Source: Candidatus Woesebacteria bacterium GW2011_GWC1_42_9 (lineage in GTDB: Bacteria; Patescibacteriota; Microgenomatia; UBA8517). From it: a stretch of 44,215 nucleotides of DNA. Of this stretch, positions 10,053-24,795 are shown piece by piece (position 1 is the first letter of the stretch; the number at the start of each line of letters is the position of its first letter). The stretch spans positions 1-44,215 of the forward strand of contig LCET01000005.1 in the NCBI GenBank assembly GCA_000995185.1, in the 5' to 3' direction. The position numbers and the translations under genes were made by a program. The notes beneath the pieces were generated by a model. It was given only the letters and a program-made list of their open reading frames with translations, made no database searches and had not been told where the DNA came from.

Positions 10053-10128
10053 TGGGGTGGCTGAGCGGGATCGAACCGCCAACCCCTTGCTCCACAGGCA
10101 AGTGCTCTACCATTGAGCTACAGCCACC
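10053..10128 (-). tRNA. tRNA-His(GUG)
   Basis: Full cloverleaf with an 8-bp acceptor (G-1:C73, the His identity feature), D-arm GCTC/GAGC, anticodon loop CTGTGGA and an encoded CCA. Its first 21 nt are duplicated exactly at 10160-10180, upstream in the direction of transcription. Confidence 0.96.
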
Positions 10129-10180
10129 ATCTCTAATTGCTCAATGGCCAAGGTTTCCTTACCATTGAGCTACAGCCACC
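10129..10180 (-). repeat. tRNA-His 5'-end copy plus hairpin element
   Basis: Read on the - strand: nt 10180-10160 repeat the first 21 nt of tRNA-His exactly and stop at the D-loop GGTA. Then come AAGG-AAA-CCTT (10160-10150), GG, and CCATTGAGC (10147-10139), which pairs with GCTCAATGG inside the copy (10170-10162). The result is a 9-bp stem, a 1x2 internal loop, a 4-bp stem and an AAA loop. Ten nt then lead to the true tRNA start. The element lies between the promoter and the tRNA, so it should be transcribed as a 5' leader. Confidence 0.85.
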
Positions 10181-10191
10181 AAAACCACCTT

Positions 10192-10200
10192 ATTATATCA
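10192..10200 (-). promoter_or_regulatory. Extended -10 promoter of tRNA-His
   Basis: TGATATAAT on the - strand (TGn extended -10). Its end lies 11 nt before the duplicated tRNA 5' end; no convincing -35. Confidence 0.65.
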
Positions 10201-10243
10201 AAAGAGCGTGCAATTTTTGTGTGTACATTGCACGCCCAAGCCA

Positions 10244-10678
10244 TCAATCATCGAGAAAGACACTGCCATACTTTACGCTGTTTTTCAGTAGAGTTTCTAT
10301 CGGCGTGGTAGCATCCTCCTTGCGTTCTTCGAAATACTCTTCTTCCTCTTGTTGAACAATGTTTGGATCTTGATTTTCATTCTTGGCCTTATCGTCTTCC
10401 CCAAGCCACTTTTCAAACGTAATAATAGGCAGGAGAATCAACAAAGCAAAGACAATCATTATCCAAAGCCACAGGTAAATCCAAATCGGAATGATTAACA
10501 GTGCTATCGGCCAGGATAGCCATGTGAACAGCAGAAGCGATGACATAACCCCAATGATAAATCCGATAAACCACATCATTTGTACCCCAGGGCTATCTTC
10601 CGAAAAGTGGATGTGCCACCACACAAAACTTTTTGCCTTCCGATTACAGAAACTTATAAAGCGCGAAATGTCTTCCAT
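10244..10678 (-). CDS. Small two-helix membrane protein with charged tail
   Basis: 144 aa, unrecognised. N-terminal amphipathic region, two long hydrophobic helices (about residues 34-58 and 60-85, tryptophan-rich LWLWIMIVFALLILLP), then an acidic/lysine-rich cytoplasmic tail with QQEEEEYFEERKED. Start fixed by AAGGAG five to ten bases upstream of the ATG and by an extended -10 at 10710. Confidence 0.75.
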   Translation of the reverse strand: MEDISRFISFCNRKAKSFVWWHIHFSEDSPGVQMMWFIGFIIGVMSSLLLFTWLSWPIALLIIPIWIYLWLWIMIVFALLILLPIITFEKWLGEDDKAKNENQDPNIVQQEEEEYFEERKEDATTPIETLLKNSVKYGSVFLDD

Positions 10679-10709
10679 TTCAATCTCCTTAACTCAAAGA
10701 CTTGCGGGC

Positions 10710-10718
10710 ATTATACCA
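10710..10718 (-). promoter_or_regulatory. Extended -10 promoter
   Basis: TGGTATAAT on the - strand, about 32 nt upstream of the ATG at 10678; the leader carries AAGGAG. Confidence 0.6.
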
Positions 10719-10727
10719 AATTTGAAG

Positions 10728-10997
10728 CTAGATTTCTTCTTCTGACTCAAGTTCCCGCGGGGCCTCTTCACTTTCTTCCTCGTCCGCGTAGTCATTTATT
10801 GGCTTTTCATTGTGCTCGAGCTCGTCTTTTTCTACCTCTTCTGCAATTGTAAACGGCTTATCGTCTTCCGGCTCGTTACCGATGGCGTCTTCTAAAATAT
10901 CAACTGTATCATCCTCTCCAGTCAACTCCGGCTCGTATACTTCGCTGTCTTGTTTTTTGAATTCCTCTTCTAAATCTTCTGGCTTTGGTCTGGCCAT
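10728..10997 (-). CDS. Highly acidic small protein
   Basis: 89 aa starting at ATG 10997 (MARPKPEDLEEEFKKQ). Over a third of residues are Asp or Glu, with no hydrophobic core, cysteines or membrane helix; probably disordered. An upstream in-frame extension exists but would run through the promoter. Function unknown; the DLEEEF start and repeated acidic blocks resemble no family I can name. Confidence 0.6.
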   Translation of the reverse strand: MARPKPEDLEEEFKKQDSEVYEPELTGEDDTVDILEDAIGNEPEDDKPFTIAEEVEKDELEHNEKPINDYADEEESEEAPRELESEEEI

Positions 10998-11005
10998 AAT
11001 TACTA

Positions 11006-11033
11006 ATAATACGGGAGTGAGAAAGTGATGCAA
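11006..11033 (-). promoter_or_regulatory. Promoter of the acidic protein gene
   Basis: TTGCAT, 16-nt spacer, TATTAT on the - strand; the -10 ends 8 nt before ATG 10997 with no SD between, so the message is probably leaderless. Confidence 0.6.
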
Positions 11034-11046
11034 GGGGCAATTTGAG

Positions 11047-12168
11047 CTAGAAGTAGAAGCTTCCTACGGCTTCATTGATCGATTTATATTGATCCCTTGC
11101 AATTAACTTTATAAGCCCTTCGTTAATCTCCCGGGGAAGCTGTGGGCCCTCATAAATTAATCCAGTAATTAATTGGACTAGAGATGCCCCACGACAAATT
11201 TTTTCATAAGCATCCTCTGCAGAAAACACCCCCCCGCAACCAATGATGATTAGTTTATCTCCGTAATGTCGGTAGGTTAGGGAAATCAGTTCGTTTGATC
11301 GTTTTCGGCAAGGTAACCCACTAAAATTTCCAGCTGTGGCTTTTGAAATCTCAACCTTATTAAAACTTTGGTTCTTGCGATTTTTTTCCAAATTACCAAT
11401 AATCACTCCGCAAACTTTATGTTTTACAATAACTTTTAGCATTTTTAAGAAGTCTTCATTTGATTCTGTGATCGGCATTTTGATAAAAATTGGCTTTTTG
11501 ATTCTTAATTTATCTAGACTTGTGAGCAAATTATTTAAATTTCTTGGGGGGTAAAAAGTGATATTTTTGGCGCCATGAATTAAGTTTGGGCAACTAATAT
11601 TAAGTTCATAATAACTGTGCCTAACCTTACTTTTCTCGAAACTAGCGAAACTAGCAAGAATATCATTGATGCTTTCTTTAATTGTTGTGAGTTTTGCGGA
11701 ATTGGTCCTCCCGATACTAATTCCAACAGGCGCATCAAATTTTAAGCCTCCTAATTTTTTAATAATTTCGGCCGCTCCTCGGCTTTTAAAGCCTTTGTTG
11801 ACCAAAAGAGACTTTGACTTGGGGAGCCTTCCCAAGCGGGGTGCTGGATTACCATCATAGGACATATTGGTCACAGTACCAACGGTCGAAAATCCAAAAC
11901 TAATCTTTGGCAAGATTTGAGTCAGGTTCCCATCATAATCAAATCCAGCGGCAAGCCCAATTGGATTTTCAAATTTTAAACCCTCAATTTTTTGAACCAG
12001 TTTTTTATCCTCATAAAAAAACAAGTTTTTGATCATGTTTCTGGTAAGCGCACTGGACCCTAAATATTTCCCAAAGCTAGTAAAATGGTTATGGATGCTT
12101 TCTGAATCCAGCAAAAATAGAGCAGGTTTGGCAGACTGATACGAATACCTCAAAATCTTGGAGATCAT
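11047..12168 (-). CDS. pyrD: Dihydroorotate dehydrogenase, class-2-like with a cysteine at the catalytic base position
   Basis: Oxidises dihydroorotate to orotate in pyrimidine synthesis. 373 aa. The N-terminal helical extension (residues 1-45) typical of membrane-associated, quinone-linked class 2 enzymes is followed by the FMN barrel: NPIGLAAGFDYDG (68-80), NPAPRLGRLPKS (107-118), NKGF (124-127) and ELNISCPN (188-195). Class 2 enzymes have Ser at the base position, class 1 have Cys; here it is Cys193. No other pyr gene or class 1B partner subunit is in the window. The ATG is 4 nt after the 3' end of tRNA-Gly and has no SD, so the message is probably released by tRNA processing. Confidence 0.92.
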   Translation of the reverse strand: MISKILRYSYQSAKPALFLLDSESIHNHFTSFGKYLGSSALTRNMIKNLFFYEDKKLVQKIEGLKFENPIGLAAGFDYDGNLTQILPKISFGFSTVGTVTNMSYDGNPAPRLGRLPKSKSLLVNKGFKSRGAAEIIKKLGGLKFDAPVGISIGRTNSAKLTTIKESINDILASFASFEKSKVRHSYYELNISCPNLIHGAKNITFYPPRNLNNLLTSLDKLRIKKPIFIKMPITESNEDFLKMLKVIVKHKVCGVIIGNLEKNRKNQSFNKVEISKATAGNFSGLPCRKRSNELISLTYRHYGDKLIIIGCGGVFSAEDAYEKICRGASLVQLITGLIYEGPQLPREINEGLIKLIARDQYKSINEAVGSFYF

Positions 12169-12172
12169 TATG

Positions 12173-12246
12173 AGCGGGTGATGGGTTTCGAACCCACGAC
12201 CTTCAGTTTGGAAAACTGACGCTCTAACCAGCTGAGCTACACCCGC
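12173..12246 (-). tRNA. tRNA-Gly(UCC)
   Basis: Acceptor GCGGGTG/CACCCGC with discriminator U73 (glycine feature), anticodon loop TTTCCAA. No CCA encoded. It begins on the base after the VKOR stop codon and ends 4 nt before the pyrD ATG. Confidence 0.95.
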
Positions 12247-12723
12247 CTACGACTTTCCGCTTAACTTCGTGTATTTTATAACAAGATAGCTAATAATAAC
12301 AAATATAAAAGTTGAACTAATGGCTGAAAGAAGGCAATATTGGCAGAATGTCTTGATCACAGAAACTTGTAAATATGTAAACCAAAGTGAAGCGAGAAAG
12401 CCAAAAAACGTGGAGACAAAAAGGGCCATGAGTATTGCCCTACTTTTATAATTAACAAAAAATCCCAAAAGAACTCCAATAAATAAATAGTAGTACACCC
12501 CGATTTGTGCTAGGGGAATGCCATAAAAACTCGCATATTTACTGCTCAGGACTTCGCCGCAACCGTTAGTAATAGTGCAGGGGATTTGTATCCCGCTTTG
12601 ATGTTCCGACAAAAGAACCGAAGAATCTAAAAACCCAACTACTAAAAATAGTAGAAGCCAAAGTTTTAAAACAAGCGGAAAATTATGGGGAATAGTCTTC
12701 GACAAGCTTTTTAAGTTGATCAT
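12247..12723 (-). CDS. Vitamin K epoxide reductase (VKOR) family protein
   Basis: 158 aa from ATG 12723; a longer start at 12750 is open. Integral membrane quinone-linked oxidoreductase that reoxidises a DsbA-like partner. Four or five hydrophobic helices; loop cysteines Cys49 and Cys55 (PCTITNGCGEVLSSKY with the family Ser) and the active-site pair Cys127/Cys130 (TFCQYC). It overlaps the 3' end of the dsbA-like gene by 41 nt, so the two are coupled. Its stop abuts tRNA-Gly with no gap. Confidence 0.93.
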   Translation of the reverse strand: MINLKSLSKTIPHNFPLVLKLWLLLFLVVGFLDSSVLLSEHQSGIQIPCTITNGCGEVLSSKYASFYGIPLAQIGVYYYLFIGVLLGFFVNYKSRAILMALFVSTFFGFLASLWFTYLQVSVIKTFCQYCLLSAISSTFIFVIISYLVIKYTKLSGKS

Positions 12724-13411
12724 AAGATTTTGGATTATCAATTTTTTCACCGTTTATAAAAAACGTCGGAGTAGAATTAACTCGGCTGGCAATACCACTG
12801 CGATAATCATTATTCACTCTATCCCGGGTTTCATCGGATTTCAAATCTGTATTAAATTGATCGATATTAAGGCCCAGATCTTGGGCATATTTAGTAAATT
12901 CCTTCTCGGGGTCAGGTAGATTTTCCCAAACTGACTGGTTTGCAAAAAGCAGATCATGCATCTCCCAAAACTTTCCCTGGCTTCCCGCCGCTTCGGCGGC
13001 ATAGCTTGCCACTTTCGCATTTTTGTGGATTTGTTCCAACGGGAAATGTCTGTATACCAAGGCAATTTCATCTCCTTTTTCATCTAACAATTTTTTCATG
13101 AACCCTGAATAATAAGCACATGCAGGACACTGAAAATCGCTATATTCCACGATAACAATGTCTGAATCAGGATTCCCTTTAACATGGTCTTCCGCGCTAA
13201 TTTCCGAAGAAAGCACCGAAGGGGACCCTTCCTTAGAAGTGGAAGTGACCGCTCCATATATCCCATACCCGATTACCCCCACAATGAGGACAATGGGGAT
13301 CCAAGTAGCCATCTTGCGAAAAGCCCGAGAATAATTCTGCCTCTTTTCCTCTTGGGCTTTTTTTTCTTTAGATAATTCTCGTTTTTCTCTTTTTGTTAAA
13401 GCTTCTTCCAT
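12683..13411 (-). CDS. DsbA-like thioredoxin-fold disulfide oxidase, membrane anchored
   Basis: 242 aa from ATG 13411; longer readings run into tRNA-Leu. Basic, charged N-terminal cytoplasmic segment (residues 1-35), a transmembrane helix (about 36-54), then a DSBA-type thioredoxin domain with Cys95-Pro-Ala-Cys98 (DFQCPACAYY), YRHFPLEQIH and the cis-Pro loop NSTPTFF. The partner VKOR follows directly. The ATG lies 4 nt after the last base of tRNA-Leu, leaving no room for an SD outside the tRNA. Confidence 0.94.
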   Translation of the reverse strand: MEEALTKREKRELSKEKKAQEEKRQNYSRAFRKMATWIPIVLIVGVIGYGIYGAVTSTSKEGSPSVLSSEISAEDHVKGNPDSDIVIVEYSDFQCPACAYYSGFMKKLLDEKGDEIALVYRHFPLEQIHKNAKVASYAAEAAGSQGKFWEMHDLLFANQSVWENLPDPEKEFTKYAQDLGLNIDQFNTDLKSDETRDRVNNDYRSGIASRVNSTPTFFINGEKIDNPKSYDQLKKLVEDYSP

Positions 13412-13415
13412 AAAG

Positions 13416-13502
13416 TGCCGGGGGTGGGACTCGAACCCACACGTCCGATAATCGGACACAGGATTTTAAGTCCTGCGCGTCTACCAGTTCCGCCACCTCG
13501 GC
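13416..13502 (-). tRNA. tRNA-Leu(UAA)
   Basis: Class II tRNA with a long variable arm; acceptor GCCGAGG, anticodon loop CTTAAAA, A73, no CCA. One base separates it from the CCA of tRNA-Arg upstream. Confidence 0.95.
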
Positions 13503-13503
13503 T

Positions 13504-13580
13504 TGGTGCGCCTGGGAGGACTCGAACCTCCAACCCTCTGTTCCGAAGACAGATGCTCTGATCCATTGAGCTACAGGCGC
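13504..13580 (-). tRNA. tRNA-Arg(UCG)
   Basis: Acceptor GCGCCTG/CAGGCGC, anticodon loop CTTCGGA, A73 and encoded CCA. First gene of the mixed tRNA/mRNA operon that ends with pyrD. Confidence 0.95.
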
Positions 13581-13586
13581 AAAAGC

Positions 13587-13616
13587 TTCAATATTATACC
13601 GAATTTCGGATATAAT
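13587..13616 (+). promoter_or_regulatory. Promoter of the DRG-type GTPase
   Basis: TTCAAT, 18-nt spacer, TATAAT; the -10 ends 6 nt before ATG 13623, implying a leaderless message. Confidence 0.6.
13593..13598 (-). promoter_or_regulatory. -10 box of the tRNA-Arg/Leu-dsbA-VKOR-tRNA-Gly-pyrD operon
   Basis: TATAAT on the - strand, 12 nt before tRNA-Arg. It overlaps the divergent promoter of the DRG GTPase gene. Confidence 0.6.
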
Positions 13617-13622
13617 TTCAGC

Positions 13623-14735
13623 ATGGTACAAATGACAAAGCAAGAAATAACCAGAATGCAGATAAAACGGATCGAAAAAGAAATCCGCGATACTCCTTAT
13701 CACAAGGGTACTGAGCACCATATTGGGAGACTTCGAGCAAAAATCTCGAAATTAAAAGACAACTTGGACGTTTCCACAAAAAAGGGAGGCGGGGGAGGGT
13801 ATGCTGTAAAAAAGCAAGGCGACGCAACCATTGTTCTTGTGGGTCCTCCTTCTGCAGGCAAATCCACTCTTATAAATCTTCTAACTAATGCGCACTCAAA
13901 AGTAGCCCCTTATTCATTTACCACAGTTACAGTCATACCAGGAATGATGAAATATAAAAACGCAAAGATCCAAATACTTGATGTCCCGGGACTTATAGAA
14001 GGCGCTGAGGAAGGTAAGGGCCGTGGCCGGGAAGTGATGTCGGTCGTGCGCGGGGCAGATCTTTTAATTCTCATAAGTGATATCAAAAGGCCAGAAGCTA
14101 TTGGGCGAATTAAAAAAGCTCTCGAGCGAAATGGGATCAGAATAAATAAATATCTCCCGGCAGTAAGGATACAAAAAAGGCTTTCCGGAGGGCTTATTAT
14201 CCACTCAAATATTCGGCAGGAACTGTCAAACTTAACGATCAAGGAAGTGGCCTCTCAGATGGGATTAAAAAATGCAGAAATTTCAATCAATGAAAAAATG
14301 GATTTGGACCGCTTGATCGATGCATTTTCCACAAACAGGATTTATATCCCGGCAATAAATGTACTCAATAAGTCGGACCAAGAAAAATTAAAAGATATGT
14401 CTCAAATAAGCAAAGCTGAGCATGCTGTGCCTGTAGAGGCTATAAAAATTAGTGCAACAAAAAACAAAGGCATTAAAAAACTCAAAGAGATAATTTGGGA
14501 AAAATTAAATTTTGTCCAAATTTATCTCGTTAGGATTAACGAAGAACCCAATACTAATGACCCCATTATTTCTAGATCGGGAACTACCCTCAGACAAATA
14601 AGTGAAAAAATAGGGTCAAGTTTTTCAGAAAGAAGGTCTCGGGCAAAAATCTGGGGACCTGGGGCAAAATTCCCAGGACAAGAAGTATCTTTATCGCTCA
14701 TGGTAAAAGAGGGCATGATGGTTAGATTTATTTAA
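13623..14735 (+). CDS. DRG-type (developmentally regulated GTP-binding protein) GTPase with TGS domain
   Basis: 370 aa. Obg-superfamily GTPase of the DRG branch, ribosome-associated in archaea and eukaryotes. N-terminal basic helical hairpin with the DRG-like IEKEIRDTPYHKGTEHHIG (residues 17-35), a glycine run (55-59), G1 GPPSAGKST (74-82), G2 SFTT (98-101), G3 DVPGLIEGA (120-128), G4 NKSD (249-252), SAT (277-279), and a C-terminal TGS domain (about 297-370: VRINEEPNTND...GPGAKFPGQEVSL). This is the full DRG order and length, not the bacterial Obg layout with its glycine-rich Obg fold. A -10 box sits 6 nt before the ATG. Horizontal origin from archaea is possible. Confidence 0.9.
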   Translation: MVQMTKQEITRMQIKRIEKEIRDTPYHKGTEHHIGRLRAKISKLKDNLDVSTKKGGGGGYAVKKQGDATIVLVGPPSAGKSTLINLLTNAHSKVAPYSFTTVTVIPGMMKYKNAKIQILDVPGLIEGAEEGKGRGREVMSVVRGADLLILISDIKRPEAIGRIKKALERNGIRINKYLPAVRIQKRLSGGLIIHSNIRQELSNLTIKEVASQMGLKNAEISINEKMDLDRLIDAFSTNRIYIPAINVLNKSDQEKLKDMSQISKAEHAVPVEAIKISATKNKGIKKLKEIIWEKLNFVQIYLVRINEEPNTNDPIISRSGTTLRQISEKIGSSFSERRSRAKIWGPGAKFPGQEVSLSLMVKEGMMVRFI

Positions 14736-14750
14736 ATAAGCCTCATTTTT

Positions 14751-14759
14751 TGATATAAT
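14751..14759 (+). promoter_or_regulatory. Extended -10 promoter of the Leu/Leu/Val tRNA cluster
   Basis: TGATATAAT, the same extended -10 as at tRNA-His. Its end is 27 nt before the tRNA-Leu 5'-end copy. Confidence 0.65.
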
Positions 14760-14786
14760 TCAAGCTCTAGTCAGTTTGATTTATTA

Positions 14787-14837
14787 GCCTTCGTGGCGGA
14801 ACTGGTAAGCAAAGCTTGGCCAGTTCGAGATACATAA
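14787..14837 (+). repeat. tRNA-Leu(CAG) 5'-end copy plus hairpin element
   Basis: 14787-14807 repeat the first 21 nt of the downstream tRNA-Leu exactly and stop at the D-loop GGTA. Then AAGC-AAA-GCTT (14807-14817), GG, and CCAGTTC (14820-14826) pairing with GAACTGG (14799-14805) in the copy. Eleven nt lead to the true tRNA start. Same geometry as the tRNA-His element: 21-nt copy, AAA loop, T versus GG internal loop, offset 51 nt against 52. Confidence 0.85.
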
Positions 14838-14924
14838 GCCTTCGTGGCGGAACTGGTAGACGCGCAGCGTTCAGGACGCTGTGTCGCTTGCGACGTAGAG
14901 GTTCGAGTCCTCTCGAAGGCACCA
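14838..14924 (+). tRNA. tRNA-Leu(CAG)
   Basis: Class II tRNA; acceptor GCCTTCG/CGAAGGC, anticodon loop TTCAGGA, long variable arm (GTCGC/GCGAC), A73 and encoded CCA. Confidence 0.95.
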
Positions 14925-14966
14925 AGCTATTGCAAAGCCGACCTGTCGGCCGTAGCTTTAGCGTAG
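14925..14966 (+). repeat. REP-like double palindrome between two tRNA-Leu genes
   Basis: Inner hairpin GCCGAC-CT-GTCGGC (14937-14950) nested in an outer pair AAGCTA/TAGCTT. Its antisense translation contains AYAKATAD, a string I remember from repeat-derived ORFs in CPR and other genomes. It is probably an extragenic palindromic repeat. Confidence 0.5.
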
Positions 14967-15050
14967 GCCGAGGTGTTGAAACTGGTAGACAAGCACGCTT
15001 GAGGTGCGTGTGGGGTAACACCCGTGGAGGTTCGAGTCCTCTCCTCGGCA
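14967..15050 (+). tRNA. tRNA-Leu(GAG)
   Basis: Class II tRNA; acceptor GCCGAGG/CCTCGGC, anticodon loop TTGAGGT, A73, no CCA. Confidence 0.94.
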
Positions 15051-15057
15051 CAAAAAA

Positions 15058-15130
15058 GGTCGCATAGCTCAGTTGGTAGAGCATTCGGTTTACATCCGAA
15101 GGGTCCAAGGTTCGAGTCCTTGTGCGACCA
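15058..15130 (+). tRNA. tRNA-Val(UAC)
   Basis: Acceptor GGTCGCA/TGCGACC, D-arm GCTC/GAGC, anticodon loop TTTACAT, A73, no CCA. Confidence 0.95.
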
Positions 15131-15151
15131 CAACACTGAAGAAATTCACAG

Positions 15152-15188
15152 AAAAATAAAATCCCGCCGTTTGAGATCAAAGGCGGGA
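15152..15188 (-). terminator. Rho-independent terminator of the secreted-protein gene
   Basis: 7-bp stem TCCCGCC/GGCGGGA (15162-15168 with 15182-15188); on the - strand it is followed by TTTTATTTTT. Confidence 0.8.
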
Positions 15189-15227
15189 CTCCTCCACTAA
15201 ATTAAATCGGACAAAATATATCACAAG

Positions 15228-16154
15228 CTATTGGTCTGGTTCTCGGAACTCGATGGCGTCATCCACCCCGTACCAACCCCAATTGAGCGGGCGCACACCG
15301 TCTGGATAAACGCCATATGCCTCAATCAACGGCAAAAGCGCTTCGGCGTTTATATTCTCGCGGCATCCGAGAATTAATATTCCGCGGGCTTGCCCATAGA
15401 CCATCACCCCGTCCTCACCTTGGACATCCACATAAACCGGGGGAGTATAAATCACTTGACGATCGGCGTCCTCCACCGTAAATCCACCGATTTTCCAGAA
15501 GATGTTAAACATCCCCTCGGTTAAAATCGTGTGCGGCTGAACCACGGCGCCCACCGGCGTGCAAACCGCAGGCACCGGCGCGATCGCGCAGGGGACATAT
15601 TCACCAACAATGTCGCCCATTGCGGTTTTGTCGGTTTGCCAATCAGCTTCAGTTACTTCGTTGTCGGTCCAAGTCCCATTGCCGCAGGTTACAAACGTCC
15701 AGCCCCAATCAGTGATCGTAAAGCCGTAAATAGTCCCCACATCAAAAAAGTTGTGGAAATATTTGGCCTCATAGCTGGCATAAGAACCCACCGTGAGATC
15801 TTCCTCGCCTGCTGGCACGTTGATATTCAACGTCCCGCAGATCGTCCCACTGATCCCGCCGGAAACAGTACCAGGAATTCCGGCTGCAACCGTGTCGCCA
15901 GGCTCACCGCCAGGGGACCCTCCGCCAATGGTTTCAAAAGTCCCTGCATCCACCCGGATGTAGTTGTAGCAATCCGGCCCTGTTTGGGTAAGCGTTAACA
16001 AGCTATGGAAATGATCCACGGCCCAAATGCCCTGCATCCCGTTGTCCATCGTTTTAAAGCTATACCCCACGACGACCGAGAGGCCCGACACCGACGACAC
16101 TAAGAACGCTGACATAATCAGCACCAATATAAAGAGCACAGCTACCTTTTTCAC
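15228..16154 (-). CDS. GC-rich secreted protein of unknown function
   Basis: 308 aa, GTG start fixed by AAGGAG 6-11 nt upstream. A signal peptide (MKKVAVLFILVLIMSAFLVSSVSG) is followed by a glycine/proline-rich stretch (GGGSPGGEPGDTVAAGIPG) and several aromatic segments (HNFFDVGTIYGF, DWGWTFVTCGNG, NWGWYGVDD). About seven scattered cysteines. No second membrane helix or sorting motif. Composition is unlike its neighbours: parts exceed 65% GC while the surroundings are near 40%. It is a self-contained unit with its own spaced promoter, strong SD and terminator, which fits an abundant surface or secreted protein or a recent acquisition. Confidence 0.8.
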   Translation of the reverse strand: MKKVAVLFILVLIMSAFLVSSVSGLSVVVGYSFKTMDNGMQGIWAVDHFHSLLTLTQTGPDCYNYIRVDAGTFETIGGGSPGGEPGDTVAAGIPGTVSGGISGTICGTLNINVPAGEEDLTVGSYASYEAKYFHNFFDVGTIYGFTITDWGWTFVTCGNGTWTDNEVTEADWQTDKTAMGDIVGEYVPCAIAPVPAVCTPVGAVVQPHTILTEGMFNIFWKIGGFTVEDADRQVIYTPPVYVDVQGEDGVMVYGQARGILILGCRENINAEALLPLIEAYGVYPDGVRPLNWGWYGVDDAIEFREPDQ

Positions 16155-16168
16155 TTCACACTCCTTTG

Positions 16169-16197
16169 GTTATAGGTATACGAGAAGATAGCCACAA
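16169..16197 (-). promoter_or_regulatory. Promoter of the secreted-protein gene
   Basis: TTGTGG, 17-nt spacer, TATAAC on the - strand, upstream of an AAGGAG. Confidence 0.6.
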
Positions 16198-16234
16198 ATA
16201 GCACTGTATTATAGCACGCCGCTCACAAATATAG

Positions 16235-16240
16235 TAAAAT
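16235..16240 (+). promoter_or_regulatory. Putative -10 of the Phe/Gly/Arg tRNA cluster
   Basis: TAAAAT 11 nt before tRNA-Phe; no recognisable -35. Confidence 0.4.
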
Positions 16241-16251
16241 ACACAGCATAA

Positions 16252-16324
16252 GCTGAGGTAGCCAAGTCGGTCACGGCGGGCGCCTGAAGAGCGTCAGATA
16301 TAGGTTCGATTCCTATCCTCAGCA
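16252..16324 (+). tRNA. tRNA-Phe(GAA)
   Basis: Acceptor GCTGAGG/CCTCAGC, anticodon loop CTGAAGA, T-arm ATAGG/CCTAT, A73, no CCA. The D-arm GCC/GGC is short. Confidence 0.92.
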
Positions 16325-16341
16325 CCTCGCTCATTTCATTT

Positions 16342-16413
16342 GCGGCGGTAGTTCAGTGGTAGAATGTCTCGTTGCCAACGAGAAGGTCGGCGGTTCAAAT
16401 CCGCTCCGCCGCT
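16342..16413 (+). tRNA. tRNA-Gly(GCC)
   Basis: Acceptor GCGGCGG/CCGCCGC, anticodon loop TTGCCAA, U73, no CCA. Confidence 0.95.
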
Positions 16414-16437
16414 CATTTTTATTCGCTTAAATCATAA

Positions 16438-16511
16438 GCCCTAGTAGCTCAACTGGATAGAGCAGGAGTGTTCTAAACTCAAGGTTGGGGGTTCAAGTCC
16501 CTCCTAGGGCA
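16438..16511 (+). tRNA. tRNA-Arg(UCU)
   Basis: Acceptor GCCCTAG/CTAGGGC, anticodon loop GTTCTAA, A73, no CCA. Its last 33 nt are antisense to the C-terminal codons of the M50 protease gene. Confidence 0.95.
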
Positions 16512-17720
16512 CAGCGTTAGCCGCGGTAAATATTTTTTCAAAACCTCATATATTAATAATGTAACTGCCAAAATCTGTATAGAAATGATGATGAGCCCGT
16601 CCAAAAATTCTGTAGAGTTGGACTCGATATACCCCAAATAAAGACTCCCGATGCCGCTTGTGGCCAACTTTAAGGTAATTGGTAAATGATATAAGCTGTA
16701 CCTCACTATCGCAAACATAGTTCCTGAAAAGAAAAAAAACGTATATATATTCACAAAAAAAATTTCTCTCCTGGTCAAATAATGGTCAAAGGGCTGTCTC
16801 GTAATCAGGGAGTAAATCTTTTTTATTGCATAAGTATAAAGATTCTCTACGCCTACCAATTCTTTAATTACAAAATAAAAATCAGTACGGGTGAAAAACA
16901 GAAATTGCCACAAAAATGTTAACCATTGAATTAAGATAAATTGGTGAATTATCTCAAGATTTTGGTTTGGAAAAAGAAAAATAATTAGATAAAAAATAAA
17001 TACCAGAATAAGATCAAAAACCATCCCTGAAAGATAAATTACCAAACGCCAAAACTTGGGAACAGAAAAAATATCAGGATTGTATGTTTCAAAAACTAGA
17101 AAATTCAAACGATAGGAAAGTCTAATCTTTGCTCTGATCCCCTGTGAGGCGGCAGTCCAGTAATGCACCAACTCATGCATAATCCCGAAAATCCAGCTAA
17201 AGATGAAAAAAGTCAATAAAGAAATACTTAATCTTTCATGCCAAAAAAAATCAGCGTATTTAGGAAGCCCATAACGAGAAAAAATGATCATCATTAATCC
17301 CAAACAAGCCAAAAAAACATAAATAGTCAGTAATAATTTGTGAAAAAAAAATTTTAACCAAAGTGGTTTGGTGCCCCGAGGTAATAATCGATTTTCATCG
17401 CGGCCAAATGAAATATGGTCTATTTTTTTAATAAGCCCATGCTTGGTCATCAATAAAATCATAATTTTCACTTTATGGATTGCCCTTTCTTCGGGAATGG
17501 AACGTTTTGCCCTTTGTGCCATTTTACGGGCAATTGCTTCTATTCTTTGAGGTTTTTCTAATATATCCACTATATGTCTCCAAAAAGGCTTAGTTAGTAA
17601 ATACTTTCCCGTATCTTTACTGCCCAGATAAATTTTTCCGGAGCCTGCCTTCTGCCAAACCAAGCCTTCGGCATATATCATGCTTTTATTTTTTATTTTT
17701 ATGTCCTTACCCATTGACAT
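16479..17720 (-). CDS. Polytopic M50-type peptide zinc metalloprotease with N-terminal PqqD-like domain
   Basis: 413 aa from ATG 17720; ATG 17714 is an alternative. N-terminal about 100 residues resemble a PqqD-like peptide-binding domain (GKYLLTKPFWRHIVDILEKPQ...LLMTKHGLIKKID). Then six or more membrane helices with the zinc motif HELVH (182-186) and a likely third ligand Asp280 in RTDFYFVIKEL, as in putative peptide zinc metalloproteases found near modified-peptide genes. Expected role: intramembrane cleavage or handling of a peptide. It is divergent from a 49-aa CxxC peptide gene across 49 bp. The last codons (CPRRDLNPQP) are antisense to tRNA-Arg(UCU), and no earlier stop exists. Confidence 0.82.
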   Translation of the reverse strand: MSMGKDIKIKNKSMIYAEGLVWQKAGSGKIYLGSKDTGKYLLTKPFWRHIVDILEKPQRIEAIARKMAQRAKRSIPEERAIHKVKIMILLMTKHGLIKKIDHISFGRDENRLLPRGTKPLWLKFFFHKLLLTIYVFLACLGLMMIIFSRYGLPKYADFFWHERLSISLLTFFIFSWIFGIMHELVHYWTAASQGIRAKIRLSYRLNFLVFETYNPDIFSVPKFWRLVIYLSGMVFDLILVFIFYLIIFLFPNQNLEIIHQFILIQWLTFLWQFLFFTRTDFYFVIKELVGVENLYTYAIKKIYSLITRQPFDHYLTRREIFFVNIYTFFFFSGTMFAIVRYSLYHLPITLKLATSGIGSLYLGYIESNSTEFLDGLIIISIQILAVTLLIYEVLKKYLPRLTLCPRRDLNPQP

Positions 17721-17741
17721 ATAGTAACCATTTTTGTAATT

Positions 17742-17747
17742 ATTATA
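17742..17747 (-). promoter_or_regulatory. -10 box of the M50 protease gene
   Basis: TATAAT on the - strand, 21 nt before ATG 17720; no SD is visible. On the + strand a TTGACA (17714-17719) lies inside the start of this gene and may serve the divergent peptide gene. Confidence 0.5.
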
Positions 17748-17769
17748 TAGGATATGGAGGTGACGCTAA

Positions 17770-17919
17770 ATGGATAAACAAAAAGAAAAAAAACATCCAA
17801 ATGAAATATCTAGAAAAGTGTCTGCTAAAGTTAAATGCCCGCACTGTGGAAAGGAAATAGAAGCAGAAGTAGAGATCCCAGAACCACCAGAAACACCAAA
17901 GGTTACTTGGATCACCTAA
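17770..17919 (+). CDS. 49-aa peptide with a CPHCG knuckle
   Basis: Lys-rich N-terminal half (MDKQKEKKHPNEISRKVSAK), one zinc-ribbon-like CPHCG (residues 23-27), then an acidic, proline-rich tail (EIPEPPETPKVTWIT). Start fixed by GGAGGTGA (17756-17763), one of the best SDs in the window. The TAA overlaps the next ATG by one base (TAATG), so the 424-aa protein is coupled to it. It could be half of a zinc ribbon, a small accessory subunit or, given the M50/PqqD-like neighbour, a peptide substrate; this is inference. Confidence 0.7.
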   Translation: MDKQKEKKHPNEISRKVSAKVKCPHCGKEIEAEVEIPEPPETPKVTWIT

Positions 17920-19193
17920 TGCCTGAGAGAAAAGATTTTTATAATCCAGAATATACACTAGCCTCATTAAGAGGTAGTCTTTCGGGTGATGATTCAAAAA
18001 GACTCGCGGGAGTTGTTACGGATATCCAAAGCAATTTGTTGCTTGCAGTCAGTACCCCTGAACTTGGCCAATTCCAAGAACGATTAATTGAAGGTGTTTA
18101 TAGAGAATTCGGCGGATATATCGACAAAGCTTCCGACGGAGAACTGCAGAAGTATCTTCGACCAGACTTCGAAACCAGCTCAGCACTTTCTACCTTGTAT
18201 TCCATTACCAATACCCATATATTTAATGTCTGGATGAGGAGAGAAGACCCTTCTGAATTAATTGAGGAAAGCATCCACAGGTATGAACGACTCCAAAACC
18301 CAACAGAAATAACTAAACTCGCCTATAATCGCAACCTCACAGAACTAAACGAAGCAATTCAGCTTGACCCAGAAGCGGCCTGTGCCAGGCTTGCTGATGT
18401 TGTCGCTGAGACAAGCCGTGCGGTCACAGCTATCGATGTTCTGAGGGCCTCTACTGGAGCCCTTCACCACGCCACCAAAGAGACCCATTATCGCGATATT
18501 AATTTTATTCCTTCTGACTTTCGAAACGCCTATGGTCAAACTCAACTCGATATGGCCGCCCTACTAATTTGCTTTCCCAGGCAATATAACCAAGCCAAAG
18601 TTTATGTGAATTCTGGCAGGTTGTCACTTGCCGATGCCAGATCAATCCTTTTGGCCGTACCACCCGGAGAAAGACACTCTTTAGTTTTCTTGCGTCGAGA
18701 GGCTACTAATGACAGCAACCTGGCTTATGCCTCATTTATAGAAGCCGACATAGAGCTTTCAACTCCTACCAGAAACGGTGAGTATTTTGCTTATTTTACT
18801 GGAGAAGCCATAACTCCTCTTCGCCGATTCCTCGCTACCGTACACAGAGATCCTAGGCCCAATAATCTGTCTAACACTGAAGATAAAGTTAGACTACCAG
18901 TTTACTTTAAACCAGAAATACTTCTCAGATTTGCCTACGGCGCGGCACTTTTTTACCAAGCTGAAAAAGTATTCCCTACATGGTCTGCAAAAATGGAAAG
19001 AATCCAACACGATTTTTTTTCACTTATGGAAGAAGAAGTATTCCCTGGACAACTCAGAAGGCTGCCTAAAGATAGAGAAATAGCCCATTTAGCCAACCGA
19101 CTTATCAGCCTCGCTAAGCAAAAGGCCGCTGACCCGTCAGATAATGCTGAAATCACTAAATATACTTACCTTTTCAGAAAATTCAGTATTTAA
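17919..19193 (+). CDS. 424-aa unknown soluble protein
   Basis: Not recognised. No signal peptide or membrane segment. Mostly helical by appearance, with motifs such as NNLSNTEDKVRLPVYFKPEILLR reading like a conserved core and several Arg-Asp pairs, but no catalytic signature I can name. The start is the ATG overlapping the stop of the 49-aa peptide gene; an upstream extension to 17835 is open but would overlap that gene in another frame. It is the second gene of a two-gene unit facing away from the M50 protease. Confidence 0.72.
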   Translation: MPERKDFYNPEYTLASLRGSLSGDDSKRLAGVVTDIQSNLLLAVSTPELGQFQERLIEGVYREFGGYIDKASDGELQKYLRPDFETSSALSTLYSITNTHIFNVWMRREDPSELIEESIHRYERLQNPTEITKLAYNRNLTELNEAIQLDPEAACARLADVVAETSRAVTAIDVLRASTGALHHATKETHYRDINFIPSDFRNAYGQTQLDMAALLICFPRQYNQAKVYVNSGRLSLADARSILLAVPPGERHSLVFLRREATNDSNLAYASFIEADIELSTPTRNGEYFAYFTGEAITPLRRFLATVHRDPRPNNLSNTEDKVRLPVYFKPEILLRFAYGAALFYQAEKVFPTWSAKMERIQHDFFSLMEEEVFPGQLRRLPKDREIAHLANRLISLAKQKAADPSDNAEITKYTYLFRKFSI

Positions 19194-19215
19194 ATTTTTA
19201 AAAATCTCCGAAATT

Positions 19216-19224
19216 TGATAGAAT
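19216..19224 (+). promoter_or_regulatory. Extended -10 promoter of tRNA-Pro/Lys
   Basis: TGATAGAAT, 16 nt before tRNA-Pro. Confidence 0.55.
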
Positions 19225-19240
19225 AGGCGCAACTTCTTCG

Positions 19241-19313
19241 CGGGGTGTAGCTCAGTTGGTAGAGTGCACGCTTTGGGAGCGTGAGGTCCCCGGTTCGAGC
19301 CCGGGCACCCCGA
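19241..19313 (+). tRNA. tRNA-Pro(UGG)
   Basis: Acceptor CGGGGTG/CACCCCG, anticodon loop TTTGGGA, A73, no CCA. Confidence 0.95.
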
Positions 19314-19320
19314 CACAAAC

Positions 19321-19395
19321 GGGTCGCTAGCTCAACGGTAGAGCAACCGGCTCTTAACCGGTAGGTTACAGGTTCGAGCCCTGTGCGACCCACCA
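19321..19395 (+). tRNA. tRNA-Lys(CUU)
   Basis: Acceptor GGGTCGC/GCGACCC, anticodon loop CTCTTAA, A73 and encoded CCA. Probably co-transcribed with the lysozyme-like gene that follows. Confidence 0.94.
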
Positions 19396-19451
19396 ATTTA
19401 TGCCTGTTTGACTTATTAACTCGATTTGTGGCATTCTTGTCTAAGCCCAAG

Positions 19452-20078
19452 ATGGAACCTGATTTGTTTGTCAAAAATTTACTCTTGATTGCTGTCTTTT
19501 TGATACTAACCCCGCTAGCGCTGGGGACAAGTTTGTTTACTTTGATTGCGATCTCCACAAATGAGGAAGTTGTTAGCCGCACTGAGGTGCTTTCATATAA
19601 AGACACCAACCTTATTACCGCCCCTATGCCCGGGGTTAATGTCTATGCATCTCTCCCAAGTGAGTCCTACGCCATTTCAGGCAACGTATATGGAAAGGAT
19701 GCCCGTATTGAAATAATCAGGCAATATCTTGAATACTACCGATCTCCGCTTGAGCCATACTCGACTCAACTTGTCGCCATGGCAGATAAGTATGGACTTG
19801 ATTTCAAGTTGACCACAGCAATTGCTCAACAAGAGTCAAATTTGTGCAAAAAAATCCCCGAAAACACGTACAACTGCTGGGGCTGGGGGATACATAGTCA
19901 AGGTACTTTGGGATTTGAAGACTACTCTCACGCCATAGAAACAGTTTCCCGTGGACTTCGCAAGGAATATTTGGACAAGGGCTTTCTCAGCATTGAAGAT
20001 ATTATGGGTAAATATACCCCCCTCTCAAATGGCTCTTGGGCACAAGGGGTGAGCACTTTTATGGCAGACATGGAGTAG
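19452..20078 (+). CDS. Membrane-anchored lysozyme/transglycosylase-like protein
   Basis: 208 aa from ATG 19452; in-frame GTG 19428 would add 8 residues, and a longer reading runs into tRNA-Lys. One N-terminal helix (about 9-34), a linker, then a lysozyme-fold-like domain: VAMADKYGLDFKLTTAIAQQESNLC (108-132) with probable catalytic Glu128, NCWGWGIHSQG (141-151) and AIETVSRGLRKEY (161-173). Expected to act on peptidoglycan outside the membrane. No promoter or SD is evident between tRNA-Lys and the start, so it probably rides on the tRNA transcript. Confidence 0.75.
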   Translation: MEPDLFVKNLLLIAVFLILTPLALGTSLFTLIAISTNEEVVSRTEVLSYKDTNLITAPMPGVNVYASLPSESYAISGNVYGKDARIEIIRQYLEYYRSPLEPYSTQLVAMADKYGLDFKLTTAIAQQESNLCKKIPENTYNCWGWGIHSQGTLGFEDYSHAIETVSRGLRKEYLDKGFLSIEDIMGKYTPLSNGSWAQGVSTFMADME

Positions 20079-20079
20079 A

Positions 20080-20835
20080 ATGTCTGCGGCATATGATAAC
20101 TACAATTATCAAGCATATTGGAAAGGCCGAGATTATGAGCATGAAAGCGAGGTATTGGCCATCAATAGTTTTATAAAACATCTCCCCAACAATTTGAACG
20201 TCATTGATATTGGTTGCGGGTTTGGACGTCTCGCACCGCTTTATTTAAACAAATCCAAGCGAGCGCTCTTGACCGATTCGTCTAAGAAGTGTCTCTCTGA
20301 AGCAAAGGTGCGCCTCTCCAAAGACCCTAGAGTTAGCTTTTTGTATTCTAAAGCTGAAAATGTAGTCAAAAAAACCGGCAGTCAAAAGTTTGATTTAGCA
20401 CTCTTTGTGAGAGTGATGCACCATATAGAAGACCCCAAAATAATCCTAAAAGAAGTAAATAGGCTTTTGAAAAAGGATGGTTTTTTTATCCTAGAATACG
20501 CCAACAAACAACATATTAAGGCGACTTTTATGAATCTTAAAAGAGGAAATTTCATTTTTCCATTTGAGATTTTCCCAGAGGATAAGCGCACTTCATCGAA
20601 TCAAAATGAAAAATGCATCCCATTTTTGAATTTTCACCCAGCTTACATCAAGGATCTTCTAACCGAGAGCGGCTTTGAAATTATTGAAGTGCGATCTGTT
20701 TCCAACGCAAGAAGCCGGAAATTAAAAAAGATTTTCCCTCATAATTTTATGCTTCTAATAGAACGGTTTCTTCAAAAGCCATTAGGTAAAATCCATTTTG
20801 GACCTTCTATTTTCGTACTTGCGAAGAAGAAGTAA
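20080..20835 (+). CDS. Class I SAM-dependent methyltransferase
   Basis: 251 aa. SAM motif I VIDIGCGFGRL (41-51), acidic residue after beta 2 (LLTDSS), motif DLALFVRVMHHIEDPKIILKEVNRLLKKDGFFILEY typical of the methyltransferase 11/25 group. The substrate is unknown. It begins 1 nt after the lysozyme-like gene stops. Confidence 0.9.
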   Translation: MSAAYDNYNYQAYWKGRDYEHESEVLAINSFIKHLPNNLNVIDIGCGFGRLAPLYLNKSKRALLTDSSKKCLSEAKVRLSKDPRVSFLYSKAENVVKKTGSQKFDLALFVRVMHHIEDPKIILKEVNRLLKKDGFFILEYANKQHIKATFMNLKRGNFIFPFEIFPEDKRTSSNQNEKCIPFLNFHPAYIKDLLTESGFEIIEVRSVSNARSRKLKKIFPHNFMLLIERFLQKPLGKIHFGPSIFVLAKKK

Positions 20836-20867
20836 ACCAGCCTAACAGGACGAATACGTCCTATAGC

Positions 20868-20896
20868 TTGACTTAATTATGGGACTATGATATAGT
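20868..20896 (+). promoter_or_regulatory. Strong promoter of a candidate small RNA
   Basis: TTGACT, 17-nt spacer, TATAGT with an upstream TG (TGATATAGT). Among the closest to consensus in the window, yet no ORF follows. Confidence 0.7.
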
Positions 20897-20902
20897 CCCC
20901 AT

Positions 20903-20985
20903 TACGTTTCAAGGCAACCCTGATTTTTTCAGGGGAGCGTTGGAATTCCCCAAGACCCCGCTTTACCGCGGGGTTCTTGATTTGT
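20903..20985 (+). ncRNA. Candidate structured small RNA
   Basis: About 80 nt after a strong promoter with no start codon. First hairpin CCCTGA-TTTTT-TCAGGG inside CAAC/GTTG; an alternative pairing GGGGA/TCCCC would break it. It ends in a GC-rich hairpin CCCCGC-TTTACC-GCGGGG extended by AAG/CTT (20952-20978), a probable terminator although the U-tract is weak (TTCTTGATTTG). It does not match SRP RNA, tmRNA, RNase P RNA or a riboswitch that I can recognise. Confidence 0.5.
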
Positions 20986-20999
20986 GAGAGTCTAACTAA

Positions 21000-21029
21000 A
21001 AGACAATATACTATCTCCGATGTTATAAT
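21000..21029 (+). promoter_or_regulatory. Promoter of tRNA-Leu(UAG)
   Basis: AAGACA, 18-nt spacer, TATAAT, 21 nt before the tRNA. Confidence 0.55.
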
Positions 21030-21050
21030 TCCAGTAGAAATTTCTTATAT

Positions 21051-21135
21051 GCCGAGGTGGCGGAACTGGTAGACGCGCAGGATTTAGGATCCTGTGTCTT
21101 TAAAAGACGTGGAGGTTCGAGTCCTCTCCCCGGCA
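21051..21135 (+). tRNA. tRNA-Leu(UAG)
   Basis: Class II tRNA; acceptor GCCGAGG/CCCCGGC, anticodon loop TTTAGGA, variable arm GTCTT/AAGAC, A73, no CCA. Confidence 0.95.
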
Positions 21136-21149
21136 CACACTATTTTTGC

Positions 21150-21155
21150 TACAAT
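21150..21155 (+). promoter_or_regulatory. -10 box of the eight-cysteine gene
   Basis: TACAAT, 6 nt before ATG 21162; no SD between. Confidence 0.5.
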
Positions 21156-21161
21156 AAGTAA

Positions 21162-21509
21162 ATGCTTATTCGCAGGATCGTCAATAGCTTCCTAATACTT
21201 TTTGCTCTATTTACCTTAGCTCTAATTGGGTATTATTTAACTAAGTCCGTGCTTAATATGCAGACACAAGAATTTCCAACCCGAGTCACTTTTGATAAAA
21301 AGCCATACCGCGAAGCTTATGGGTCGCTTAAATATGCGCAAGGGGAGTGTGACTTGGATAACGAATGCGAACCTTCGGGATGTTCAGAAGAGGTTTGCTC
21401 CTCAGATCCAAATATAAACACTGCTTGCGAGATCAAAAAAGATTTTCCCGATAACCAGAGTTATCGATGCGGATGCTTTGATAGTCGCTGTGCTTGGATC
21501 GAAAAATAG
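21162..21509 (+). CDS. Membrane-anchored eight-cysteine-cluster protein
   Basis: 115 aa. N-terminal helix (residues 4-26), then an extracytoplasmic domain with exactly eight cysteines at 63, 69, 74, 79, 89, 103, 105 and 110 (GECDLDNEC, SGCSEEVC, NTACE, RCGCFDSRCAW). This spacing resembles the small family annotated as eight-cysteine-cluster proteins; the role is unknown. Four disulfides are plausible and would depend on the DsbA/VKOR pair. A -10 box 6 nt before the ATG suggests a leaderless message. Confidence 0.75.
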   Translation: MLIRRIVNSFLILFALFTLALIGYYLTKSVLNMQTQEFPTRVTFDKKPYREAYGSLKYAQGECDLDNECEPSGCSEEVCSSDPNINTACEIKKDFPDNQSYRCGCFDSRCAWIEK

Positions 21510-21511
21510 AC

Positions 21512-22066
21512 ATGGAAAAAAATACCTTGCATATCCATCCGAACAAATTTGCAAATAACTGGCACATTATTTTTATTTTTTTACCCTCAATTATTTTTGT
21601 GTTGCTAATCGCGCTTGCTTTTAAGAACCTCTCTATCAAAAACTCTAAAATGTCTCGGGGGTCTGCTGTATCGGCAAGTGACAAACTTGTCCTTGATCTT
21701 AAGAAAAAACCCGTCAGAGTAGGCGAGACAGGCTTAATTGCCTACATTGCTGATAGCGATGAATCACGAAAGCTGGGACTTTCAAATCGTAGTAGTTTGG
21801 CAAGCGATGAGGCTATGCTTTTTGTTTTCGACAAGCCCGATGTAAACCCGCCATTTTGGATGAAGGACATGCACTTTCCCATTGATATTATTTGGATTAA
21901 TGATGGGAAAGTAATATTCATAAACGAAAATGTAGAACCGGCAGAAACCGAAAGTGATTTGAAATTATACTTACCTCCGGAGCCGATCGACTATGTTTTA
22001 GAGGTCAATGCCGGATTTTCGGCAGCGAACAAACTGGAGCTTGGAAATCCCTTCATAATTTTATAA
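21512..22066 (+). CDS. DUF192 family protein, membrane anchored
   Basis: 184 aa from ATG 21512, 2 nt after the previous stop; an upstream TTG at 21494 would overlap that gene. One N-terminal helix (about 18-38) and an outside DUF192 domain: LGLSNRSSLASDEAMLFVFDKP, PPFWMKDMHFPIDIIWIN, VLEVNAGFSAANKLELGN. The family is secreted or anchored and of unknown function. Confidence 0.9.
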   Translation: MEKNTLHIHPNKFANNWHIIFIFLPSIIFVLLIALAFKNLSIKNSKMSRGSAVSASDKLVLDLKKKPVRVGETGLIAYIADSDESRKLGLSNRSSLASDEAMLFVFDKPDVNPPFWMKDMHFPIDIIWINDGKVIFINENVEPAETESDLKLYLPPEPIDYVLEVNAGFSAANKLELGNPFIIL

Positions 22067-22103
22067 ACTTCGCCATCGGCCATTTGTTTAGGAGTATGCA
22101 CAT

Positions 22104-22268
22104 ATGAAGCACTGTCCTCATAGAAAATTTTGCGCCTGGTGCAATAAGTCAATCTGCCCGAAGCGTGGCTTTCGCTCAATCGTAAACCTTGTGTACAAAA
22201 ACAAAGTTATAATTGACGCGAGAACTCGATATCGCAGGCGATTATCCTGGTCGCGCAAAGTTCATTAA
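22104..22268 (+). CDS. 54-aa basic protein with four cysteines
   Basis: Starts at an ATG with AGGAG 9 nt upstream. Cysteines at 4, 10, 13 and 18 (KHCPHRKFCAWCNKSICPKRG) could bind one zinc; the rest is very basic (ARTRYRRRLSWSRKVH), pointing to nucleic acid binding. No family recognised. It ends tail to tail with the polymerase gene, overlapping it by 4 nt. Confidence 0.65.
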   Translation: MKHCPHRKFCAWCNKSICPKRGFRSIVNLVYKNKVIIDARTRYRRRLSWSRKVH

Positions 22269-23530: not shown

Positions 23531-23774
23531 CAGAAATTTCTTCTAAAGTCCAGTGTAAATTTTCAGTGTTCAGAACCAGTTTAAAAAAAAGCGTAGGGGT
23601 GGCGACAGAGAAAACATGGAACAAGGTGCGCCCCATCCGATAAGTGTGGTGGAGTCCAAGCCTGGTAATTGGATAAAGGCGGTTATTCCAAATAATGCAT
23701 TTAGGGGAAACTTTATGCTTTACACTATCAAAATTAAAAGAGACAGAAATGGGAGAGTTAATTTTTTGGATCAC
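23514..23774 (-). CDS. Small protein co-expressed with the Y-family polymerase
   Basis: 86 aa from GTG 23774, chosen because the longer frame runs through the promoter (TTGACT...TATAAA ends 6 nt before this GTG). Beta-rich with KCIIWNNRLYPITRLGLHHTYR and LFHVFSVATPTLFFKLVLN and a final LHWTLEEI. Small genes of this type next to dinB resemble the DUF6504-like group, but I cannot confirm the match. Possibly a polymerase accessory protein. Confidence 0.65.
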   Translation of the reverse strand: MIQKINSPISVSFNFDSVKHKVSPKCIIWNNRLYPITRLGLHHTYRMGRTLFHVFSVATPTLFFKLVLNTENLHWTLEEISDGLPN

Positions 23775-23780
23775 AAGTAG

Positions 23781-23810
23781 TTTATATACCCGAATAAAAC
23801 CCAAAGTCAA
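23781..23810 (-). promoter_or_regulatory. Promoter of the 86-aa gene and dinB
   Basis: TTGACT, 18-nt spacer, TATAAA on the - strand, then 6 nt to GTG 23774. Confidence 0.65.
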
Positions 23811-23824
23811 GAGGGGAATCTCAA

Positions 23825-24523: not shown

Positions 24524-24529
24524 AAGTCG

Positions 24530-24540
24530 ATTATATTATA
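24530..24540. promoter_or_regulatory. Shared divergent -10 region
   Basis: An AT palindrome gives TATAAT on the - strand (24530-24535; 6 nt to the AlkD-like GTG) and TATTAT on the + strand (24534-24539; 5 nt to ATG 24545). The two leaderless promoters overlap and cannot both be occupied. Confidence 0.6.
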
Positions 24541-24544
24541 AGAA

Positions 24545-24745: not shown

Positions 24746-24777
24746 GGGTGAAGAAAAAGATCTCCTCTTCACCCTTA
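24734..24777 (-). terminator. Rho-independent terminator of the 71-aa gene
   Basis: Perfect 12-bp stem TAAGGGTGAAGA/TCTTCACCCTTA (24743-24754 with 24766-24777); on the - strand it is followed by TTTTTTTATA. Confidence 0.85.
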
Positions 24778-24795
24778 CCTATAAATTCGTGCGCG

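Follow-up and report, generated by a model that had tools for sequence, protein, structure and literature searches.

At positions 13623–14735 on the forward strand of the window (the whole analysed stretch of 44,215 nucleotides), a coding sequence starts with ATG and specifies 370 amino acids plus a stop codon; its product is a DRG-family GTPase. The window corresponds to contig 5 of a reduced bacterial genome that measures 894,452 bases and is 96.3% complete, from a class which we take to be Microgenomatia. Fifteen tRNA genes are gathered in 20 kb of the window (10053–29655), and several of them, on both strands, flank the DRG gene.

The Pfam profile MMR_HSR1_Xtn (PF16897), which describes the DRG region after the G3 motif, matched residues 189–296 with 84.5 bits at a cut-off of 35.2, and MMR_HSR1 matched as well. 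In a phmmer search of the PDB, the top three distinct sequences were yeast Rbg1 (twice) and Rbg2, aligned over nearly the whole length (window residues 10–364, E 8.5e-66, and 13–363, E 2.4e-62, respectively), and the next match, Obg 1udx (E 3e-15), covered only residues 68–154 of the G domain. The best two NCBIfam Obg models gave 92–94 bits against cut-offs of 280–406. One of these models, TIGR02729, reached 92.2 bits (cut-off 280.25) on the G domain only, and both the cut-off score and the N-terminal Obg fold of Obg/CgtA are missing. YchF membership is likewise lacking at 23.7 bits for TIGR00092 (cut-off 279.2), and the HflX model gave 46 bits against 217.

Four domains are arranged along the protein, all coordinates being on the forward strand. 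The N-terminal helix-turn-helix (HTH) hairpin (residues 6–50; 13638–13772) consists of two predicted helices, 6–23 and 31–50, and is aligned to Rbg1 and Rbg2; Lys28 (K28) and T30 are invariant in a sequence alignment (A1). The G domain carries OBG-type G1, or P-loop (GPPSAGKS, residues 74–81; 13842–13865), G3 (DVPG) and G4 (NKSD). Proteins from the order of the window's genome keep G1 and G3 in 45/45 and G4 in 44/45 cases, and the P-loop is also present in all 28 of the 28 class proteins examined. Between G3 and G4 lies the S5D2L insert (residues 178–242, 14154–14348, with approximate boundaries), indicated by the PF16897 score, the alignment with Rbg1 and modelled strands and helices at 181–242. 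At the C-terminus, the TGS domain (about residues 297–370; 14511–14732) scored 13.6 bits with the Pfam TGS profile, under the cut-off of 22.2, compared with 69.5 for an archaeal Drg (L056). The phmmer match extends to residue 364 and the fold alignment with Rbg1 through residue 370, and these data support a predicted TGS domain that is real by fold, weak by sequence and diverged. The hairpin, the three motifs and the TGS tail had been read from the sequence in the preliminary description and were found again, the tail in this diverged form.

An AlphaFold model was built from 44 sequences, those of the window and the compared loci, with a pLDDT of 85.0 and a pTM of 0.83; it contains all four DRG domains (HTH, G, S5D2L and TGS), with stretches of low confidence at 54–59, 91–101 and 125–127. 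When compared with Rbg1 (4a9a), it gave Z 31.6 and rmsd 3.8 over 345 residues spanning 8–370. Ribosome-bound Rbg1 (7rr5) and Rbg2 (7nrc) followed with Z 28.7 and 25.9, and the next family by fold, in a ranking that speaks only for families in the VIA comparison list, was HflX with Z 17.9 over 174 residues.

Archaeal Drg proteins, such as those of Archaeoglobaceae (L056) and Woesearchaeota (L062), have the same four-domain order and length as the window protein and are 38–45% identical to it (74 archaeal loci). The yeast representatives of eukaryotic DRG1 and DRG2, Rbg1 and Rbg2, resemble it in full-length sequence and fold, K28/T30 and GTPase motifs at 37% and 34% identity. Bacterial Obg/CgtA has the OBG-family G domain in common with it, corresponding to window residues 68–154, but the window protein has HTH, S5D2L and TGS in place of the Obg fold. 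YchF/OLA1 and HflX have the G domain of the OBG-HflX superfamily in common with it, and YchF also possesses a TGS domain (PMC8629797, PMC3510508); both differ from it in the scores given above, and HflX also in the short reach of its fold match. The window protein is a true DRG-family GTPase, belonging to a bacterial branch of the archaeal and eukaryotic Drg family.

Upstream of the gene, a −10-like TATAAT (13611–13616, forward strand) ends 6 nt before the ATG. The motif TAYAAT was found at −18 to −6 in 36 of 45 DRG genes of the order, where 0.99 were expected from shuffling, and in 1 of 27 DRG genes of other orders (1.19 expected). Within the window, only 2 of 24 genes examined have TAYAAT starting at −18 to −11, namely DRG and a PBP-like gene. 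The position of TATAAT implies a leaderless or near-leaderless mRNA, and it looks, from these sequence patterns, as if the DRG gene of the order forms a transcription unit of its own with such an mRNA.

Domain conservation and probable contacts with the ribosome

Conservation was counted in relation to positions fixed in archaea and eukaryotes, i.e., occupied by one residue in at least 90% of 83 rows (74 archaeal loci, the seven rows L194–L200 and two yeast proteins), and a position was regarded as kept when at least 90% of the order had this residue. Fragments and outliers (L034, L142, L157, L055, L178), duplicates and the diverged proteins L201–L222 of the Thermoproteota phylum were left out of the counts. 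The order retains most of the fixed residues of the G domain (36 of 41), HTH (6 of 9) and S5D2L (5 of 7), and 2 of the 11 of TGS; the retention in G and TGS differs with Fisher p 2.4e-5. TGS domains are 50% identical within the order and 50% within archaea, but 28% between them, whereas the corresponding values for the initial portion of the G domain are 69%, 61% and 56%. Five TGS positions have become newly fixed (90% or more) in a manner specific to the order.

The contacts of the yeast proteins give these figures a possible sense. According to PMC8040806, the G and HTH domains of Rbg2 (7nrc) touch H43/H44, the sarcin-ricin loop (SRL, H95) and H89 of the large subunit, S5D2L touches the A-site tRNA, and TGS touches h5/h15 of the small subunit. 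As reported in PMC3510508, the TGS of Rbg1 is essential for recruitment to polysomes, and in yeast this domain is a binding site for the DFRP partner as well. No counterpart of the yeast DFRP partners Tma46 and Gir2, proteins of the kind that recruits eukaryotic DRGs, was found in the order, in which the DFRP profile PF16543 matched 0 of 57 genomes; it had no match in the controls either, so this search is without a positive control. The archaeal rows retain their own TGS residues. Taken with the yeast structures, the conservation pattern suggests that the contacts with the large subunit and tRNA are kept and that the side facing the small subunit or a partner is re-tuned.

It could be argued instead that DRG has left the ribosome and that a conserved GTPase was recruited to another task, which would account for the changed TGS. 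The loss of all but two of the eleven fixed TGS positions agrees with this, as does the drop of TGS identity between the order and archaea below the level within each group, and it speaks against a ribosomal role that TGS, which Rbg1 needs for its recruitment to polysomes, is the most changed domain; the lack of a DFRP match, in a search without a positive control, weighs on the same side. However, conservation is largely maintained in the G, HTH and S5D2L domains, whose Rbg2 counterparts face the 50S subunit and the A-site tRNA, and TGS has been re-fixed rather than decayed, as its five order-specific positions indicate. In our opinion, departure from the ribosome is unlikely.

We infer that CPR DRG acts as a factor at the ribosomal A site and that the domain facing the small subunit has been re-tuned to the bacterial 30S; by homology with Rbg1 and Rbg2, it probably binds the ribosome and relieves stalls. 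In the proposed mechanism, the GTP form would bind the 70S ribosome at the factor site, next to the A site, the G and HTH domains touching the factor-binding rRNA of the 50S subunit (stalk base, sarcin-ricin loop and H89) and the TGS domain contacting the 30S subunit. When a ribosome is slow or stalled, the S5D2L insert would hold its A-site tRNA steady, and GTP hydrolysis would then release DRG.

Gene neighbourhood and co-occurrence with Obg, YchF and EF-P

The comparison of 21 loci revealed an upstream block of genes for a transglutaminase-like protein, UvrC, a small membrane protein and a substrate-binding protein (named by inspection). The window shares this block and the downstream genes with three single-contig genomes (G007, G064, G170), and other loci have them in part. 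In several loci, a gene for CTP synthase (also named by inspection) is situated directly upstream of DRG. Obg adjoins the upstream block in G011 and G421 and occurs near DRG in G010, G412, G410 and G024. In the window, the block is contiguous and contains no Obg, and a tblastn search with Obg of seven relatives found the G domain of DRG (E 1e-10 or lower) and elsewhere in the window only matches with E above 0.01, i.e., no remnant.

It had been proposed earlier that DRG may replace or complement a ribosome GTPase, with the advice to look for Obg in the same genome. Obg is indeed missing there: in a whole-genome search with the Obg model TIGR02729, the sole match was DRG itself (83.6 bits against 280). 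Replacement of Obg by DRG in late 50S assembly, with the gain of DRG making Obg dispensable, would agree with this. It would also agree with the facts that 23 of 47 DRG carriers of the order are without Obg, including G007, G064 and G170 (99–100% complete), and that in several relatives the two genes are neighbours or lie a short way apart. The counts do not bear it out. When Obg presence was scored from 135 class genomes over the cut-off plus 7 with fragments (26 plus G014 for the order), the gene was missing in 19/46 class genomes with DRG and 72/187 without it (p 0.74), and in the order in 23/47 and 7/10, respectively (p 0.30); 24 of the 47 order carriers have both genes. Moreover, obgE is listed in PMC12641178 among factors conserved in only about 20–70% of CPR genomes. 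DRG as a simple substitute for Obg is not supported because genomes with and without DRG lack Obg equally often, and we regard the replacement scenario as improbable.

As a separate observation, Obg frames with an in-frame TAA, possibly decaying genes, were noticed in G025 (C14, 16466–17440) and G598 (C9), both being genomes without an over-cut-off DRG.

Replacement of two other translation factors was considered and rejected. YchF is missing in 3/46 class genomes with DRG and 14/187 without it, and EF-P in 3/46 and 17/187, respectively; YchF was scored as absent when it had no match or its best E exceeded 1e-30, and EF-P when it had no match or only the 9e-13 row. YchF passes in 210 and EF-P in 202 of the 233 class genomes. 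The window's own genome (a 96% complete assembly) has no YchF and no EF-P match. A single missing stretch could explain both, because ychF and efp lie close together in relatives, for instance about 10 kb apart in G007; an assembly gap of this kind is a likely cause, and we claim no loss.

Distribution and origin of the bacterial branch

Genomes in which PF16897 exceeded its cut-off were counted as carriers. DRG was found in 24 of 38 relatives, all 24 being among the 30 of the window's own order, and in 47 of 57 genomes of this order, the named members of which are Ca. Woesebacteria. Named relatives with the same DRG are Ca. Woesebacteria (L051–L055) and Ca. Shapirobacteria (L060). At the class level, 46/233 genomes carry it, 17 in the window's order and 29 in other orders, one of the latter (G460) being at the cut-off. 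At the phylum level, 6/379 genomes pass; five of them belong to the window's family, and the sixth is a borderline case (G388, with a match of 50 positions). A DRG-like GTPase of another Patescibacteria family (L034 in G056, 1279–2214, reverse strand) is 29% identical to the window protein; it has a DRG-like N-terminus, a G domain (91 bits) and a clear TGS (46 bits), and the model of the S5D2L region is matched only by half, at 25.6 bits, below the cut-off.

A quick tree of 102 rows united 50 CPR DRGs in one group (SH-aLRT 98) and the window's order in another (97). In a more careful, midpoint-rooted tree of 76 of these rows, CPR proteins were separated from archaea and eukaryotes by a branch with 100/98 support, which occurred in 100% of 200 bootstrap trees, although the bootstrap had not fully settled. 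The order (94/96) and its families f1 (97/99) and f2 (100/97) formed clades, and such grouping by family agrees with vertical descent accompanied by losses. An exception is f163, which is split between two positions; in one of them, L151 and L168 sit on a very long branch. The branch of these two CPR proteins has a length of about 2, and their amino-acid make-up is odd. The tree set contained no Asgard archaea knowingly, and the analysis covered bacteria other than Patescibacteria only through the bacterial members of 14 named control genomes.

Using Obg as an outgroup in a G-domain tree, it was shown that DRG and Obg separate at 100/100, and the joining of the window protein to Obg was rejected (AU p 0.005). 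Together with the full-length matches to Rbg1 and Rbg2 and the low Obg scores, this upholds the earlier assignment of the protein to DRG and not to bacterial Obg. In the shorter alignment of the G domain alone, the CPR clade was neither recovered nor rejected (p 0.25), and archaea plus eukaryotes as one clade were not rejected either (p 0.195); the root within DRG is not fixed by these data.

A Thermoplasmata protein (L111) was considered as kin of a donor and discarded: the quick tree placed it nearest among the archaeal rows (85, unstarred), which is not good support, and in the careful, midpoint-rooted tree it lay on the archaeal side. Much diverged archaeal DRGs (L201–L222, Thermoproteota phylum), with 25–34% identity to the window protein and a branch length of about 1.1, were also observed alongside ordinary DRGs of the same archaeal phylum.

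Most likely, judging from the sequences, DRG entered an ancestor of Woesebacteria and related CPR once and long ago and was then mainly inherited vertically, with losses; a single ancient entry is indicated by one CPR clade with order and family sub-clades, conserved synteny and carriers with closed genomes. Acquisition from an archaeal partner, suggested in the preliminary description, disagrees, if taken as a recent event, with the presence of the gene in 47/57 order genomes, the clades formed by families and the conserved neighbourhood. The same description had named wide and vertical inheritance in CPR as evidence against its reading, and this applies to the window's order and several others of the class, but not to CPR as a whole (6/379).

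Transfer from archaea is most likely the source, its direction being a matter of economy, since the G-domain tree leaves the root unfixed. DRG might instead go back to the ancestor shared by bacteria and archaea and survive only in this class of CPR. The position of CPR DRGs on one side of a strongly supported branch, with every archaeal and eukaryotic row on the other, agrees with this, and the Obg-rooted data allow archaea plus eukaryotes as one clade; but such retention demands losses in nearly all other bacteria, and within the phylum itself the six passing genomes comprise five of the window's family and the borderline one, so we hold this descent to be hardly probable. That an archaeal contig was binned into a bacterial genome deserves practically no credence: the family is normally archaeal (PF16897 passes in 47/61 genomes of the phylum of one archaeal locus), but bacterial genes and tRNAs lie on both sides of DRG in the one contig of the window, and misbinning is excluded because the carriers include single-contig, closed genomes (G007, G064, G170, G008, G010, G011, G427).

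Biological meaning of a bacterial DRG

A 2014 study places Drg in archaea and eukaryotes, not in eubacteria (PMC4263083), and according to a 2021 review, DRGs have archaeal homologues, "though not in bacteria" (PMC8629797). Our search of open-licence papers found no report on DRG in CPR; the bacterial branch is previously unremarked in this literature, while the family itself is known.

Summarizing, an ancient entry of DRG, most likely by archaeal transfer, combined with an A-site ribosome-factor mechanism is, as a whole explanation, one that we consider reasonably probable. A bolder version, tentative and rather doubtful, is that a bacterial DRG branch works without DFRP as a core translation factor of archaeal origin, its TGS rewired to the bacterial 30S subunit, and that its ancestral presence widened the tolerance to Obg loss.

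The stable bacterial DRG clade corrects the published statement that DRG is absent from bacteria and offers a natural setting in which this GTPase meets the 70S ribosome, probably without DFRP. The distinction between universal DRG contacts (the 50S side and A-site tRNA) and domain-specific ones (TGS and 30S) becomes testable with it. DRG may also be a possible answer to the question, raised in PMC12641178, of which unrecognised genes aid CPR ribosomes that are without common assembly GTPases.
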